Source of the DNA: Hyphomicrobiales bacterium
GTDB taxonomy: Bacteria; Pseudomonadota; Alphaproteobacteria; Rhizobiales; Aestuariivirgaceae
Length of the DNA: 44,988 nucleotides
Direction of reading: 5' to 3'
Assembly (NCBI GenBank): GCA_027024225.1
Contig: JALVSR010000034.1
Span: 1-44,988, forward strand
Under the pieces are notes generated by a model that made no database searches, was not told the origin of the DNA, and saw only the letters and a program-made list of their open reading frames with translations. The translations under genes and the position numbers were made by a program. Below, one piece after another: positions 29,490-37,015 of this stretch; the first letter of the stretch is position 1; each line of letters opens with the position of its first letter.

Positions 29490-29640
29490 GAAAAATATAA
29501 GGAAAATCTAATATTAGACTTCCCTAACATATTATATTAGGTATCTTTTATATTAGAAACTTCTACTTATAAGTTCGCGAAAAATCTGGAAAAAATCATA
29601 TTCTATATTGCACATATACTCTGCGTATGCTAGGAAGCGC
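29490..29640. promoter_or_regulatory. AT-rich intergenic island with a tandem operator-like palindrome array upstream of soxX
   Basis: Perfect palindrome TCTAATATTAGA (29507-29518), near-perfect CCTAACATATTATATTAGG (29523-29541) and partial TCTTTTATATTAGA (29544-29557), with centres about 19 bp apart, in strongly AT-rich DNA unlike the flanks. Confidence 0.65.
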
Positions 29641-29747: not shown

Positions 29748-30248
29748 ATGCAGAGGAAACGCATCAGGAAGGCGGGTTTCGTTTCGGTCATTGCGATGGC
29801 GTTCGCATTCACGGCGGGCGCGCAGGCGGCCGATGTGAAGAAGGTGCATGAAAAGGGGCTGAAACCCTATGAGATCGTGGACGGCATTTCCATTCCCAAG
29901 CCCTTGACGGACAAGCCGGGCGATCCGAAGCGCGGGGCGAAGATCGTGGTCAAGCGCAAGAAAGGCAACTGCCTGGCCTGTCACAAGATCGACCAGCTGA
30001 GCGACTTTCCATTCCATGGGAACATCGGGCCGGAGCTGACCGACGTGGCCAGTCACATGAAAGATGGCGAAATGCGGCTCAGGCTGGTGAATCCGAAGGT
30101 GGTGAATGAGGACACCATCATGCCGGCCTTCTACCGCACGGAGGGATTGCACCGGGTGATGAAGAAGTTCCAGGGCAAGCCGGTGCTGACGGAACAGGAA
30201 ATCGAGGATGTCATCGCTTTCCTGAAAACGCTCAAGGCCTCGCAATAG
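29748..30248 (+). CDS. soxX: Sulfur oxidation c-type cytochrome SoxX
   Basis: Signal sequence, single CLACH heme motif in GNCLACHKIDQLSDFPFHGNIGPELTDVASHM, first gene of the sox cluster. Confidence 0.92.
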   Translation: MQRKRIRKAGFVSVIAMAFAFTAGAQAADVKKVHEKGLKPYEIVDGISIPKPLTDKPGDPKRGAKIVVKRKKGNCLACHKIDQLSDFPFHGNIGPELTDVASHMKDGEMRLRLVNPKVVNEDTIMPAFYRTEGLHRVMKKFQGKPVLTEQEIEDVIAFLKTLKASQ

Positions 30249-30463
30249 CGAAAACGGAACCTGGCTGGCCAAAGAAGCCGCAAAGCCGGACGCGATGGGT
30301 CCGGCAGGAGAGGGTCGTGTGCTTCCCGTTTCGCGAAAACAGGCCGGAGCATTCGAGAAAACAGGGAGGAGACGCCCGGGAACAGGGCGCTTCGAAAACG
30401 ACAACAACCAGAAAAACGACAAAACACGGATTTTCCGAGAAGCAACAAGGGAGCTGCTACATC

Positions 30464-30928
30464 ATGAGCAAAGTCAGGATTGAGGTGCTTGACCGTCGCG
30501 AGTTTCTGATTACCAGCGGCGCGGCCGTGGCGGCGCTGGTGGCGCTGACCAATGGCGCACTGGCGAAAAAGCCGGCCACGGAAGTGCTGAACGAGCTGAC
30601 CAAGGGGGCCAAGCCGGCGGAAGGCAAGGTGAAGCTGGAAATGCCGGAAATCGCCGAAAACGGCGCGAAGGTGCGCACCAAGATCACGGTCGAAAGCCCG
30701 ATGACGCCGGAGGATTACTGCAAGTCCGTCGCCATCATCGCGCCAAAGAACCCGGCGACGTTCGTCGGCAAGTTCAACTTCACGCCCGATTCCGGCAGGG
30801 CCTATGTGTCCACCAACATCCGCCTGGCCGAGACGCAGGAGGTGTGGGCCGTGGCCGAGATGTCGGACGGCAAGTTCTATATTGGCAAGGCCACGGTGAA
30901 GGTGACCGTGGGCGGCTGTGGCGGCTGA
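30464..30928 (+). CDS. soxY: Thiosulfate oxidation carrier protein SoxY
   Basis: Tat signal DRREFLITSGAAVAALVAL and C-terminal carrier motif VGGCGG. Confidence 0.96.
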   Translation: MSKVRIEVLDRREFLITSGAAVAALVALTNGALAKKPATEVLNELTKGAKPAEGKVKLEMPEIAENGAKVRTKITVESPMTPEDYCKSVAIIAPKNPATFVGKFNFTPDSGRAYVSTNIRLAETQEVWAVAEMSDGKFYIGKATVKVTVGGCGG

Positions 30929-30995: not shown

Positions 30996-31316
30996 ATGGC
31001 AAAGCCTCGCGTGAGAGTGCCGAAGAAGGCGAAGAAAGGCGAGATCATCGAAATCAAGACGCTCATCAAGCACAAGATGCAGCGCGCCACGAAGGACAAG
31101 AAGACGGGCAAACCCATCCCGCGCAACATCATTCATACCTTCGAGGCCAAGTTCAACGGCAAGGCCTTCTTTACCGGCAACTGGGACACCGGCATCTCGG
31201 CCGATCCGTATTGCGCCTTCAATCACCGGGTGCAGGAATCGGGCGAATACGAGTTCGTCTGGAAGGACGACGCCGGCAAGACCTACACCGCCAAGGCCAA
31301 GATCGAGGTGGCCTGA
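30996..31316 (+). CDS. soxZ: Thiosulfate oxidation carrier complex protein SoxZ
   Basis: 106 aa, KPRVRVPKKAKKGEIIEIKTLIKHKMQ...PRNIIHTFEAKFNGKAFFTGNWDTGISADPYCAFNHRVQESGEYEFVWKDDAGKTYTA. Confidence 0.95.
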   Translation: MAKPRVRVPKKAKKGEIIEIKTLIKHKMQRATKDKKTGKPIPRNIIHTFEAKFNGKAFFTGNWDTGISADPYCAFNHRVQESGEYEFVWKDDAGKTYTAKAKIEVA

Positions 31317-31427
31317 GCACGGACTTCCCTCCGGGGGATGGGTGGTTGCCGGGGCGCCACCTCATCTCCCCGGAGGGCCTCAAGGCACAATAACAATTGC
31401 AAAACATTCAGTTCAGGCGAGGGAACA

Positions 31428-32255
31428 ATGCCAGGAATCAAGCATCGCATGGGCGGGCCCGTCCTTTCCGTCCTGCTGGCCGGCGCGGGCCTGCTGGCGC
31501 TGGGGACGCAGACGGCACAGGCCTGTGAGCCGTGCAAGGGCAAATACGAGGTGAACGGCAAGAAATCCGGCTATCTGTACTCCATGCCGGAAACGCAGGC
31601 CATGCAGGACGACGACTTCATGAACCCCGGCACTTTCTGGGTGGAAAAGGGCGAAAAGCTCTGGGGCGTTGTTGAAGGCGAGGCTGGCAAGTCCTGCAAG
31701 AGCTGCCATGGCGAGCCGGAAAAGATGCGTGGCGTTTACCCGGTCTATCCCAAATACGACGAGAAGACCAAGAAGCTCATCAATATCGAGCAACGCATCA
31801 ATCGCTGCCGCACCGAACAGATGAAGGCCAAGCCCTGGAAATGGGAGTCGGAAGAGCTGTTGGCCATGACCGCGCTCATCGGATATGTCTCGCGCGGCCT
31901 GCCGGTGAACGTGAAGGTGGACGGCCCGGCCAAACCGTTTTTCGAGAAAGGCAAGGCCTTCTACTTCCAGCGCCGCGGGCAGCTGGACATGGCCTGCAAG
32001 CATTGTCACATCGATTACGCTGGGCACTACATCCGCGCCGACCTGCTCTCGGAAGGCCGGGCGGGTGGCAGCTTTCCCACCTATCGCCTGAAGTGGCAGA
32101 AGCTGGGATCGCTGCACAGGCGCTTCAAGGGCTGCAACAAGCAGGTGCGCGCCAAGCCTTACAAGCCGGGTTCGGATGAATACGTGAACCTGGAGCTGTT
32201 CGTGAAATGGCGCTCCAACGGCCTGCCGGTGGAGGTTCCGGCGGTACGGCGCTGA
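31428..32255 (+). CDS. soxA: Sulfur oxidation c-type cytochrome SoxA, two heme motifs
   Basis: 275 aa with CKSCH and CKHCH heme motifs, SEGRAGGSFPTYRLKW and FKGCNKQVRA. Start at MPGIKHRMGG. Confidence 0.94.
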   Translation: MPGIKHRMGGPVLSVLLAGAGLLALGTQTAQACEPCKGKYEVNGKKSGYLYSMPETQAMQDDDFMNPGTFWVEKGEKLWGVVEGEAGKSCKSCHGEPEKMRGVYPVYPKYDEKTKKLINIEQRINRCRTEQMKAKPWKWESEELLAMTALIGYVSRGLPVNVKVDGPAKPFFEKGKAFYFQRRGQLDMACKHCHIDYAGHYIRADLLSEGRAGGSFPTYRLKWQKLGSLHRRFKGCNKQVRAKPYKPGSDEYVNLELFVKWRSNGLPVEVPAVRR

Positions 32256-32472: not shown

Positions 32473-34167
32473 TTGCCCGTGTTGAACAGACGAGATTTCA
32501 TTCAGCTGGCATTGGCCACGCTGGCCATCACCGGATCGGTGTCGAACTTTCGGCGGGCGCTGGCCGAAGAATCGCTCACGCAGGAAAAGCTGCTGGCCTT
32601 CAGGCCCAAGGGCCAGGTCACGCTGATTCACGTGACCGACATTCACGCGCAGCTGGTGCCCATCTACTTCCGCGAGCCGGACGTGAACCTGGGCGTGGGC
32701 CCCATGAAGGGCCTGCCGCCCCACCTGACGGGCGAAGACTTCCTGAAATACTACGGAATCAAACGCGGCACGCCGGAAGCCTACATGCTCACCTACCTCG
32801 ACTTCGCGGAGCTGGCGAAGAAATACGGCAAGGTGGGCGGCATGGACAGGGTCGCCACCATCGTCAAGGCCATCCGCGCCGAGCGTGGCGATGATCGCTG
32901 CCTGGTGCTGGACGGCGGCGATACCTGGCAGGGCTCCTACACCTCGCTGAAGACGCAGGCCCAGGACATGGTGGACGTGATGAACGCGCTGGGCACCTCC
33001 GCCATGACGGCGCACTGGGAGTTCACCTTCGGCGAGGACCGCGTGAAGGAGCTCATCGACCAGCTCAAGTTCCCGTGGCTGGCGGGCAACGTGGTGGACG
33101 CCGAGTGGGAAGAGCCGGTGTTCAAGGCCTGGGAGATGTTCGAGCGCGGCGGGGTGAAGGTGGCCGTCATCGGGCAGGCCTTCCCCTACACGCCGGTGGC
33201 CAACCCGCGGCACATGATCCCCAACTGGTCGTTCGGCATCCGCGAAAAGATGGTGCAGAAGCACGTGGATGACGCGCGCGCGGCCGGTGCGGAGCTGGTG
33301 GTATTGCTCTCGCACAACGGCTACGACGTGGACCGCAAGATGGCCGGCCGGGTGAAAGGCATCGACGTGATCCTGGTGGGCCACACGCACGACGCCACGC
33401 CGAAGGTGGAGAAGGTGGGCAAGACCATCCTCGTTTCCTCCGGCTGTTCGGGCAAGTTCGTCTCGCGGCTCGACGTGGAGGTGAAGGACGGGCGGATGGT
33501 GGACTTCAACTACCGCCTCATCCCGGTGTTCTCCGACGTCATCAAGCCCGACGCGGACATGGCCAAGCTCATCGCCGACATCCGCAAACCGCACGAGAAG
33601 GTGCTTAACGAGGTGCTGGGGGTGACGGAAACGCCGCTTTACCGCCGCGGCAACCTGGCCGGCACCTTCGACACGCTCATCACCACGGCGCTGATGGAGG
33701 AGCGGGATGCGGAAATTGCCCTGTCGCCCGGCTTCCGCTGGGGACCGTCGCTGATCCCGGGGCAGGAGATCCGCGCCGAGGACGTCTATTCGCAAACGGC
33801 GATCACCTACCCGGAAGTCTACCGCACGGAGATGACCGGCGAGCGGCTGAAGGTGATCCTGGAAGACGTGTGCGACAACCTCTACAACCCCGATCCCTAC
33901 TTCCAGCAGGGCGGCGACATGGTGCGCACGGGCGGGCTGCTGTTCGACCTGCATCCCTACGAGAAGATGGGCAACCGCATCCAGAACCTGCGGCTGAAGC
34001 GCAATGGAAAGCCCATCGAGCCCTCGAAGAAATACGTGGTGACAGGCTGGGCCTCGGTGAATCCGGGCACGGAAGGTCCGCCGGTGTGGGACCTGGTGAT
34101 GAACTGGATCCGCAAGCAGAAGACCATCCGCATTCCCGAGCAGCGGGACGTGAAATTGGTGGTGTGA
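32473..34167 (+). CDS. soxB: Thiosulfohydrolase SoxB
   Basis: Tat-like NRRDFIQLALATLAI, 5'-nucleotidase-family motifs VTDIHAQLVPIYF, VLDGGDTWQGSYTSL and VILVGHTHD. TTG start at 32473, or GTG at 32479. Confidence 0.96.
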   Translation: MPVLNRRDFIQLALATLAITGSVSNFRRALAEESLTQEKLLAFRPKGQVTLIHVTDIHAQLVPIYFREPDVNLGVGPMKGLPPHLTGEDFLKYYGIKRGTPEAYMLTYLDFAELAKKYGKVGGMDRVATIVKAIRAERGDDRCLVLDGGDTWQGSYTSLKTQAQDMVDVMNALGTSAMTAHWEFTFGEDRVKELIDQLKFPWLAGNVVDAEWEEPVFKAWEMFERGGVKVAVIGQAFPYTPVANPRHMIPNWSFGIREKMVQKHVDDARAAGAELVVLLSHNGYDVDRKMAGRVKGIDVILVGHTHDATPKVEKVGKTILVSSGCSGKFVSRLDVEVKDGRMVDFNYRLIPVFSDVIKPDADMAKLIADIRKPHEKVLNEVLGVTETPLYRRGNLAGTFDTLITTALMEERDAEIALSPGFRWGPSLIPGQEIRAEDVYSQTAITYPEVYRTEMTGERLKVILEDVCDNLYNPDPYFQQGGDMVRTGGLLFDLHPYEKMGNRIQNLRLKRNGKPIEPSKKYVVTGWASVNPGTEGPPVWDLVMNWIRKQKTIRIPEQRDVKLVV

Positions 34168-34220: not shown

Positions 34221-35522
34221 ATGAAATGGCGCGGACAACATGATGACAAACACGCCGCCGCGAATGGCCTTTCGCGGCGGTGGCTCCTGCGGCTCGGGCT
34301 GCCGGGCATGGCCGCGGCCATGACGAGCCTGCTGGGCCGCGCGGGACGGGCCGCGCCCGACGCTTCCGGCGGATTCCCGTCCATCTCCGCCGCGGGCGGA
34401 GCGTTTCGACCGGGACGGCCGGCGGGTGTTCCCTATGGCGCCCCTTCGCCGCATGAGAGTGGCGTGGTGCGGCGGTGGCTGAAATGGATGCTGCCTTCGC
34501 GGCTGTCCAACGCCAGCTTCACGCCGCTGGCGGCGCTCGAGGGGATCATCACGCCCAACGGCCTTCATTTCGAGCGCCATCATGCGGGCGTGCCGGACAT
34601 CGACCCGGCAACCTTTCGCCTGCGGGTGCATGGGCTGGTGGACAGGCCGCTGGCGTTTTCGCTGGAAGACCTGAAACGCCTGCCAAGAATATCGCGCACG
34701 CATTTCCTCGAATGCGCCGGCAATGGAGCGGTCAGCTGGCGCCGGCCACAGGTGAACGCGGTGCAGTTCACCCACGGACTACTCTCCTGCTGCGAGTGGA
34801 CCGGGGTGCGCCTGCAGGACGTGCTGGCCTTGTGCGGTGTGCGCGAAGGGGCCGCCTGGCTGCTGGCGGAAGGGGCGGATGGCGTGGCCTATGCGCGCTC
34901 GGTGCCACGGGAGATGTGGGACGAAGCCCTGCTGGTGTTCGCCCAGAATGGCGAGGCGCTGCGGCCTGAGCAGGGGTATCCGCTACGGCTGCTGATACCG
35001 GGCACGGAAGGAGCGCTGAACGTGAAATGGCTGCACCGGCTGGAGCTGGGGGACGCCCCCTGGCTGACGCGCGAGGAAACTGCACGCTACGCCGACCTTC
35101 AGGACGATGGCAGGGCACGGCTGTTCACGCTGGTGCAGGAGGTCAACTCGGTCATCACCACGCCGTCTCCGGAAAACGGTTTGCGGCGGCACGGGCAACA
35201 GCAGATTTCGGGCATCGCATGGTCCGGGCACGGGCGCATCCGGGCTGTGGACGTGTCCCTGGATGGCGGAGTGAACTGGCGCCCGGCGCGGCTGGAAGAG
35301 CCCGTGCTGCCCAGGTGCCTGACGCGGTTTCGCCTGCCCTTTGCGTGGCGCGGCGAGGAATTGTTGCTGCAATCCCGCGCGGTGGACGAGGCGGGCAACG
35401 TGCAGCCCACATACGAGGAAAACCTGAAAGTGAAATCCGCCCGGCAGGTCTATCACAACAATTCCATCACCACCTGGCGGGTGATGCCCACGGGCGAGGT
35501 GAGGCATGTGCGCCTGGCGTGA
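34221..35522 (+). CDS. soxC: Sulfane dehydrogenase subunit SoxC (molybdopterin sulfite oxidase family)
   Basis: Tat signal SRRWLLRLGLPGMAAAM, Moco-binding RTHFLECAGNGAVSW and C-terminal dimerisation region GIAWSGHGRIRAVDVSLDGGVNW. Confidence 0.95.
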   Translation: MKWRGQHDDKHAAANGLSRRWLLRLGLPGMAAAMTSLLGRAGRAAPDASGGFPSISAAGGAFRPGRPAGVPYGAPSPHESGVVRRWLKWMLPSRLSNASFTPLAALEGIITPNGLHFERHHAGVPDIDPATFRLRVHGLVDRPLAFSLEDLKRLPRISRTHFLECAGNGAVSWRRPQVNAVQFTHGLLSCCEWTGVRLQDVLALCGVREGAAWLLAEGADGVAYARSVPREMWDEALLVFAQNGEALRPEQGYPLRLLIPGTEGALNVKWLHRLELGDAPWLTREETARYADLQDDGRARLFTLVQEVNSVITTPSPENGLRRHGQQQISGIAWSGHGRIRAVDVSLDGGVNWRPARLEEPVLPRCLTRFRLPFAWRGEELLLQSRAVDEAGNVQPTYEENLKVKSARQVYHNNSITTWRVMPTGEVRHVRLA

Positions 35523-36195
35523 AAAATTGCGGCACGCGAGAGCGGCGCTAGCCGCCTTTTCGAGGCCGGCAGTGGCGGCGCTGGTGGCGCTGATGGCGAT
35601 GGCGCCGGTCCATGCAGACGACTGGCTCAAGGATGACATCGGCAAGCCGCTGACAGCGGCGGAAATCGCCATCATCGACCGCGATGCCCGGCCCGACGGC
35701 GCGGGCCTGCCGCCAGGCTCCGGCACGGTGGCGGCGGGCGAGGAGGCCTATCTGGAACACTGCGCGGCTTGCCACGGCGAATTCGGCGAAGGGCTGGGAT
35801 GGGTGCCGGCCCTGCTGGGAGGCGAAGGGACGCTGGCCACGGAAACCCCGCGCAAAAGCATCGGCTCCTTCTGGCCACACGCGCCGGGGGTTTTCGACCA
35901 TGTGTGGCGCGCCATGCCGGAGGGCCATGCCTTTTCGCTCGCGCCGAAGCAGGTTTATGCGTTGACGGCCTTTCTGCTGCACATCAATGGCCTGGTCGCG
36001 GACGATTTCGTGGCCAGCGCTCAGAGCCTGCCGCGCGTGCGCATGCCCAATCGTGACGGTTTCGTCATGCCGCCGCATCCGCGGGCGCAAGGCATGCGGT
36101 GCATGACCAAATGCCGCAACAAGCCGCCGCGAATTGCGGCGCAAGCACCGCGCAAGACGCCCGGGGTGATGGCAGGAGAGCGGGAAGAGCCATGA
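35506..36195 (+). CDS. soxD: SoxD-like c-type cytochrome, monoheme
   Basis: Overlaps the soxC 3' end. Signal sequence and a single CAACH motif in EEAYLEHCAACHGEFGEGLGWVPALLGG. Confidence 0.85.
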   Translation: MCAWREKLRHARAALAAFSRPAVAALVALMAMAPVHADDWLKDDIGKPLTAAEIAIIDRDARPDGAGLPPGSGTVAAGEEAYLEHCAACHGEFGEGLGWVPALLGGEGTLATETPRKSIGSFWPHAPGVFDHVWRAMPEGHAFSLAPKQVYALTAFLLHINGLVADDFVASAQSLPRVRMPNRDGFVMPPHPRAQGMRCMTKCRNKPPRIAAQAPRKTPGVMAGEREEP

Positions 36196-36716
36196 ACACG
36201 ATCACGAACACGATGAAGATACGCAACATTCTGTGGATCGTCGGAACAGTGGCGGTGCTCGTGGCCGTGATGGCCACGTGGTGGGTGCCGCAGGCGCCCT
36301 CGGCCAGTGTGGCCTCGACGAACGGGCAGACCCCGGCGAAATGGTCCCATGGAACGCGGCTGGTGATGTTCACCGAAGACGGCTGCCCGTGGTGCGAACT
36401 GTTCAAGAAGGAAGTGATGCCCATTTACGCCAACACGGAGGAAGGCAAGGCCGCGCCCATGTGGGAGGTGGACGTTTTTGACCCGCGGCCGGCCGAGCTG
36501 CGGCATGTGGGCAGGATCGTCTATACGCCCACTTTCGTCTTGATCGACGAGAAGGGGCGCGTGGTGGGCCGCATCGAAGGGTATCCGGGTTTCGACTTTT
36601 TCTGGCAGCGGCTGGACGGTTTGTTGAAGGAAATGAAGATGCGGCAAGGGCAAGAAAACAATCACCGCAAATCTGCCGCAAAAGGGGGAACGGCATGGAT
36701 GAAGAAGCAAAATTGA
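36192..36716 (+). CDS. Membrane-anchored thioredoxin-fold protein (SoxS/SoxW-like)
   Basis: N-terminal TM segment IRNILWIVGTVAVLVAVMATWW, redox motif VMFTEDGCPWCELFKKEV and a TPTFVLID cis-Pro segment. Confidence 0.8.
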   Translation: MNTITNTMKIRNILWIVGTVAVLVAVMATWWVPQAPSASVASTNGQTPAKWSHGTRLVMFTEDGCPWCELFKKEVMPIYANTEEGKAAPMWEVDVFDPRPAELRHVGRIVYTPTFVLIDEKGRVVGRIEGYPGFDFFWQRLDGLLKEMKMRQGQENNHRKSAAKGGTAWMKKQN

Positions 36717-37015
36717 ATATTTCCGCCGAACATATGCGGCCCGGCGTGCACGCCGCGGCGGCCCTGCTGCGTACATTGGCCAATCAACAGCGGTTGCGAA
36801 TCCTGTGTCTGCTGGTAAATGGCGAGCGCACGGTGGGCGAGCTGACGGAAAAAACGGGCATGCGCCAGGCGGCGGCCTCGCAACAATTGCAGCGACTGCG
36901 GGCGGAAGGCATGGTGAGCGCCCGGCGGCAGGGGCGCAACGTGTACTACAGCCTGTCCGACCCGGCGGCGCTGGCGGTCATCCGCACCCTGCACCGCATT
37001 TATTGCGATTGCTGA
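36695..37015 (+). CDS. ArsR-family dithiol (per)sulfide-type repressor, SqrR/BigR-like
   Basis: 106 aa ArsR winged helix (LLRTLANQQRLRILCLLVNGERTVGELTEKTGMRQAAASQQLQRLRAEGMVSARRQGRNVYYSL) with Cys38 and Cys104, 66 residues apart as in SqrR/BigR. Last gene of the sox unit. Confidence 0.88.
   Translation: MDEEAKLNISAEHMRPGVHAAAALLRTLANQQRLRILCLLVNGERTVGELTEKTGMRQAAASQQLQRLRAEGMVSARRQGRNVYYSLSDPAALAVIRTLHRIYCDC

Follow-up and report, generated by a model that had tools for sequence, protein, structure and literature searches.

The AT-rich island upstream of soxX in this Thermopetrobacter-like member of the Hyphomicrobiales holds tandem copies of an 18-bp dyad, TATNAGR-N4-YCTNATA, which are most likely arrayed operators of an ArsR repressor that belongs to the BigR/SqrR/NolR subfamily and senses persulfide. 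The features of the window, meaning the whole 44,988-nucleotide stretch of DNA analysed, are collected in Table 1.

Palindromes and dyads upstream of soxX

The island has a GC content of approximately 25%, in surroundings of 60-65%. The first-pass annotation had recognized three palindromes in it, and all of them are present: TCTAATATTAGA at 29507-29518, perfect and centred at 29512.5; CCTAACATATTATATTAGG at 29523-29541, with 8 of 9 positions paired around 29532; and TCTTTTATATTAGA at 29544-29557, with 5 of 7 paired around 29550.5. It took them for operators spaced by about 19 bp on one face of the DNA. An operator-like element does occur in the immediate vicinity, in the form of a conserved dyad that rises above chance, but in another register. 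When the 171-bp island is shuffled with its dinucleotides preserved, the best palindrome is equalled or bettered in 15% of cases and the second best in 3%; generic palindromes are therefore not clearly above chance in such AT-rich DNA. The half-sites of the three are separated by 2, 9 and 4 bp, so that one dimer could not read them all alike. Finally, 19 bp amounts to about 1.8 helical turns and not to two, hence a common face does not follow; this pitch is not conserved among congeners, whereas one of 16 bp is.

We compared the soxX upstream regions of nine species, i.e. of this genome and of eight congeners that possess soxX. Their sequences have diverged, yet each keeps an AT-rich island in which an element is repeated. 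The real unit of this repetition is the 18-bp dyad, and in tandem its abutting copies follow one another at intervals of 16 bp. It precedes soxX in all nine species, in one to four copies, and 16-bp neighbours occur in seven of them. Across the nine islands, autocorrelation is highest at lag 16 (z = 5.7), and none of 500 shuffles attains this value at any lag. As 16 bp corresponds to 1.5 helical turns, adjoining dimers would sit on opposite faces of the DNA. Dyads 1-4 are the four top-scoring matches in the whole 45-kb window. Shuffles of the island match them, rank by rank, in less than 0.1% of cases (0-0.03%), with a scoring matrix from which the sites of the window itself were excluded but which derives in part from the sox arrays of congeners, related species that are not independent samples. 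A tandem array is absent from the sox locus of the sister genus g8, though g8 has the regulon.

Table 1. Dyads, promoter elements and sox unit genes in the window.
Feature	Coordinates	Strand	Remarks
Dyad 1, TATAAGGAAAATCTAATA	29496..29513	no strand	0 mismatches to TATNAGRNNNNYCTNATA
Dyad 2, TATTAGACTTCCCTAACA	29512..29529	no strand	1 mismatch; 16 bp after dyad 1
Dyad 3, TATTAGGTATCTTTTATA	29535..29552	no strand	1 mismatch; 23 bp from dyad 2 (pitch slipped by 7 bp)
Dyad 4, TATTAGAAACTTCTACTT	29551..29568	no strand	weak; 16 bp after dyad 3
Core element, TATTCTATATTGCACATA	29599..29616	no strand	SqrR frame ATTC-N8-xxAT; conserved in congeners, right half degenerate
Presumed soxX -35 box, TTGCAC	29608..29613	+	TTGC kept in 9/9 species
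soxX	29748..30248	+	TIGR04485, curated NCBIfam
soxY	30461..30928	+	TIGR04488, curated NCBIfam
soxZ	30996..31316	+	TIGR04490, curated NCBIfam
soxA	31422..32255	+	TIGR04484, curated NCBIfam
soxB	32473..34167	+	TIGR04486, curated NCBIfam
soxC, sulfite dehydrogenase	34221..35522	+	TIGR04555, curated NCBIfam
c-type cytochrome, soxD-like by position	35506..36195	+	Cytochrome_CBB3 match
Thioredoxin-like protein, SoxW-like by position	36183..36716	+	
SqrR/SoxR-type ArsR repressor, paralog A	36695..37015	+	cysteines ILC...IYC; recognition helix RQAAASQQL

Several other readings of the island were discarded. The first, a 12-bp unit TCTNATATNAGA repeated with the 16-bp pitch, fails in that the outer halves of the end units are missing in most arrays; the same register is also hardly enriched outside arrays. 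A terminator-like minus-strand hairpin at 29500-29525 was rejected, no minus-strand gene being seen to end there. So was binding by a CRP/FNR-type protein, considered for a Crp-like gene near sox in the congener G003, by inference from the 16-bp tandem pitch as against a 22-bp CRP site.

Distribution of the dyad and its putative target genes

Motif counts were controlled with the reversed pattern. The exact form ATNAGR-N4-YCTNAT occurs 73 times against 3 controls in the 11 genomes of the genus, and 56 times against 12 in the four genomes of g8. The register of the first-pass palindromes, YCTNATATNAGR, yields 29 against 9 in the genus and 22 against 20 in g8, that is, no enrichment in the latter. 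The counts of 73 to 3 and 29 to 9 identify the dyad register as the real unit; by the same counts, TCTAATATTAGA is not an operator unit but the junction where dyads 1 and 2 abut. With up to one mismatch allowed, the relaxed dyad gives 113 matches against 20 controls in the 11 genomes. The strict form TATTAGAN4TCTAATA, again with up to one mismatch, gives 33 against 0 in the genus and 24 against 1 in g8; 85 other genomes together have 36 against 18. The strict form is confined to this genus and g8.

In this genome, the dyad precedes the sox operon and the genes for a persulfide dioxygenase, a rhodanese, TsoY, an RND efflux pump and SspB. The persulfide dioxygenase gene carries the site in seven species, this one and six others. 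In relatives the dyad is also found before the sequence for a Blh sulfurtransferase domain, which has an ArsR gene as its neighbour, before a Sulf_transp pair (YeeE transporters) and before rhodaneses; further targets are SLAC1, a peroxiredoxin and FadL proteins. The dioxygenase is a metallo-beta-lactamase-fold protein that matches the persulfide dioxygenase half of Blh, residues 139-421, with more than 400 bits (residues 140-421 and 412 bits in this genome), and the regulon includes homologues of both Blh halves. Blh is the classic BigR target. The dyads thus lie at promoters of sulfide and persulfide genes, and the genome-wide motif search that the first-pass annotation had proposed did return a sulfur regulon, although some targets (SspB, the RND pump) have no obvious role in sulfur metabolism.

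One could still regard the palindromes as by-products of AT-rich promoter DNA, a UP element or a curved stretch with no dedicated binder; palindromes of a generic kind abound in such DNA, and 15% of the shuffles match the best of those at soxX. Such an origin seems very improbable for a dyad that is conserved, restricted to a lineage, phased at 16 bp and enriched across genomes before a coherent set of genes.

The placement of the dyad within promoters was followed through 38 sites. In 18 of them a TTG precedes the dyad by 3-9 bp, and no other interval of 7 bp holds as many. At single-site promoters the dyad often falls inside the core promoter, where a bound repressor would block the polymerase.

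Three groups of targets deserve mention in their own right. In several congeners the dyad precedes an operon encoding SspB, a ClpXP adaptor, and a murein endopeptidase (loci L106, at G000:C78:293-326, L183 and L188); the SspB promoter of this genome has two dyads 16 bp apart. In two species the dyad precedes the gene of a TsoY-family (seleno)protein by 42-77 bp (L103, at G000:C112:14488, and L176, on G010:C72), and at L103 it lies between TTGCAA and TATACT. Finally, the dyad occurs at two neighbouring FadL/TodX outer-membrane protein genes (L118 on G005:C44, L110 on G003:C2), which in G005 are located directly beyond the soxX array; FadL/TodX proteins are a possible uptake route for hydrophobic sulfur.

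Related operators and candidate binding proteins

The dyad can be compared with the operators of four known systems. The operator of NolR is (A/T)TTAG-N9-A(T/A) (PMC12445080, PMC8960804); ATTAGANNNNTCTAAT fits this form exactly, and the dyad is a symmetric version of it. NolR of Sinorhizobium differs in that it has no cysteines (PMC8960804) and controls symbiosis genes. The 16-bp frame of ATTAGANNNNTCTAAT is shared with SqrR of Rhodobacter capsulatus, whose site is ATTC-N8-GAAT (PMC9774250). SqrR also resembles the present system in its cysteine pair and in its control of sulfide genes, but the array dyads read ATTAGA...TCTAAT and not ATTC...GAAT, so that only the core element resembles an SqrR site; the tandem 16-bp array is a further difference of the present sox promoter.

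The SoxR proteins of Hyphomicrobium denitrificans, Paracoccus and Pseudaminobacter are likewise ArsR repressors of sox genes with several intergenic sites. Polysulfide releases SoxR of Hyphomicrobium from DNA; this protein, SqrR and their relatives leave DNA once polysulfide bridges two cysteines (PMC10451225). For Pseudaminobacter, cooperative binding of SoxR at sox promoters is announced in a title cited in PMC10318464. The accessible portions of PMC10451225 and PMC12423496 describe neither an operator motif for H. denitrificans SoxR nor such an array.

With BigR/Blh of Xylella and Agrobacterium, the regulon has in common both Blh domains, a rhodanese and sulfur transporters. Here, contrary to those systems, Blh is split into separate genes, and none of the paralogs in this genome reaches the BigR cut-off. 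True BigR/Blh operons of other Hyphomicrobiales (L192-L195) have a CATTATA...TATAATG-like palindrome before blh, a difference that implies a drift of the operator sequence within the subfamily. The BigR-type recognition suggested in the first-pass annotation is therefore retained at the level of the family, where the motif before persulfide and sulfide genes and its fit to the SqrR and NolR frames point to it.

The protein that closes the sox unit, called there a BigR-type repressor, is an ArsR protein with a winged-helix domain (HTH_5, 1e-12; HTH_metalloreg, 5e-25). Aligned to RcSqrR, the cysteines of its ILC and IYC motifs coincide with the SqrR sensing pair, and among solved structures RcSqrR is the closest to it (6e-26; 6o8k-6o8o). 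However, it is not a BigR equivalog: the cut-off of NF040642, 155 bits, is not reached by the ArsR protein of the window (78.9), by the best match in this genome (99.1) or by paralog C of G022 (95.6). In total, the genus has three SqrR/BigR-like paralogs with the SqrR cysteine pattern: the sox-terminal A, the HlyU/NolR-like C and the SqrR-like D. In this genome, C is located on G000:C66 and D on G000:C130. Paralog C has the recognition helix of NolR, QSALSQHL, and adjoins blh in g8.

Paralog A is the repressor to which the first-pass annotation had assigned the palindromes. It lies in the same operon, its closest solved relative is RcSqrR and its recognition helix is SqrR-like; nevertheless, that A should bind at the array as well as at the core site seems unlikely to us. 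G001 and G010 retain the motif, with D as the only SqrR/BigR-like paralog found in them, though the sox contigs of both stop near the expected place of A. The dyad precedes the gene of D itself in four of the four g8 genomes, three of these matches being weak, and likewise in G001, the sole clear case for the genes of C and D in the present genus. The NolR-like helix of C fits TTAG, and RcSqrR, the closest solved relative of A, reads ATTC-N8-GAAT. By presence and absence D fits best, on account of G001 and G010, a comparison that the contig breaks near sox limit in the case of A. From these comparisons we rank D and C about equally as candidate binders, followed by A, which we do not favour for the array and which might instead act at the core element. 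It is also plausible that several paralogs have binding sites in common, since sHdrR, a paired paralog of SoxR in Hyphomicrobium, binds the same fragments as SoxR (PMC12423496).

The promoters of paralog C in g1 and g8 (L222-L229, L231-L234) have a conserved AT-rich site of their own, similar to TATTTGAATATGAACATA and distinct from the TATTAGA dyad; it is located downstream of TTGCG and before the start. In genus g4, C-like ArsR genes have TATTAG...CTAATA just before their own start (L269, at G051:C2:51345, and L246, at G039:C118:6787). The G051 gene has a weaker second copy 16 bp off, and the C-like ArsR gene of G014 has a weak dyad. A dyad before an As-type ArsR gene (ArsR#2) in G003, possibly a sign of autoregulation, was set aside: the protein belongs to the arsenic-type group and has no SqrR cysteine pair.

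Proposed control of the sox promoter

Downstream of the array, [TC]ATTC-N4-TTGC is kept in eight of the nine species and overlaps the presumed -35 box TTGCAC. Scanning the soxX promoter for a consensus sigma-70 site returned none, nor a consensus -10. In Rhodobacterales, the equivalent place of the sox locus has a perfect ATTC-N8-GAAT, closely followed by a TTGC/TTGA-type -35. The present sox promoter would be unusual in combining a core site with a tandem array further upstream.

From the sequence comparisons we infer the following scheme. One winged-helix dimer would read each 18-bp dyad, with its half-sites 10 bp apart. At sox, the four dyads are arranged in two abutting pairs (16-bp pitch, 1.5 turns), followed by the SqrR-frame site on the -35 box. 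In the absence of sulfane sulfur, reduced dimers would load the array cooperatively and, together with the core site, keep the sox promoter off; when polysulfide bridges the two cysteines, the dimers would leave and the sox operon would be transcribed. Single dyads in other promoters would co-regulate the genes for persulfide dioxygenase, rhodanese, sulfur transport and efflux.

Repression relieved by sulfur is the simplest account, while the upstream position of the array is also compatible with activation. The array covers positions about 40-110 bp ahead of the presumed -35 box, and in seven species out of nine one of its dyads is 62-66 bp (about six turns) upstream of the core frame; from there another regulator, or an ArsR protein acting like HlyU, might aid RNA polymerase. 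HlyU, a member of the family, is an activator whose site lies 173 bp upstream (PMC4330345). We hold such an activator role to be rather doubtful, given that many other targets have the dyad inside the core promoter, as is typical of repression, and that the relatives with known sox targets, SoxR and sHdrR, are repressors.

On the reading as a repressor array, a more specific scheme can be put forward tentatively, as a rather improbable one: a cooperative chain of ArsR dimers, on alternating faces of the 1.5-turn array, might act over some six turns on the SqrR-type -35 site, perhaps with two paralogs involved, and so form a steep sulfane-sulfur switch that the single-site promoters of the regulon lack.

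Altogether, the dyad provides a concrete predicted operator and regulon for ArsR repressors that sense persulfide in a lineage of sulfur-oxidising alphaproteobacteria. A single family of repressors seems here to work through single sites as well as through a tandem array. Whether the length of the array sets the sharpness of the polysulfide response, and in what way paralogous repressors divide or share their targets, thereby become accessible to direct tests.
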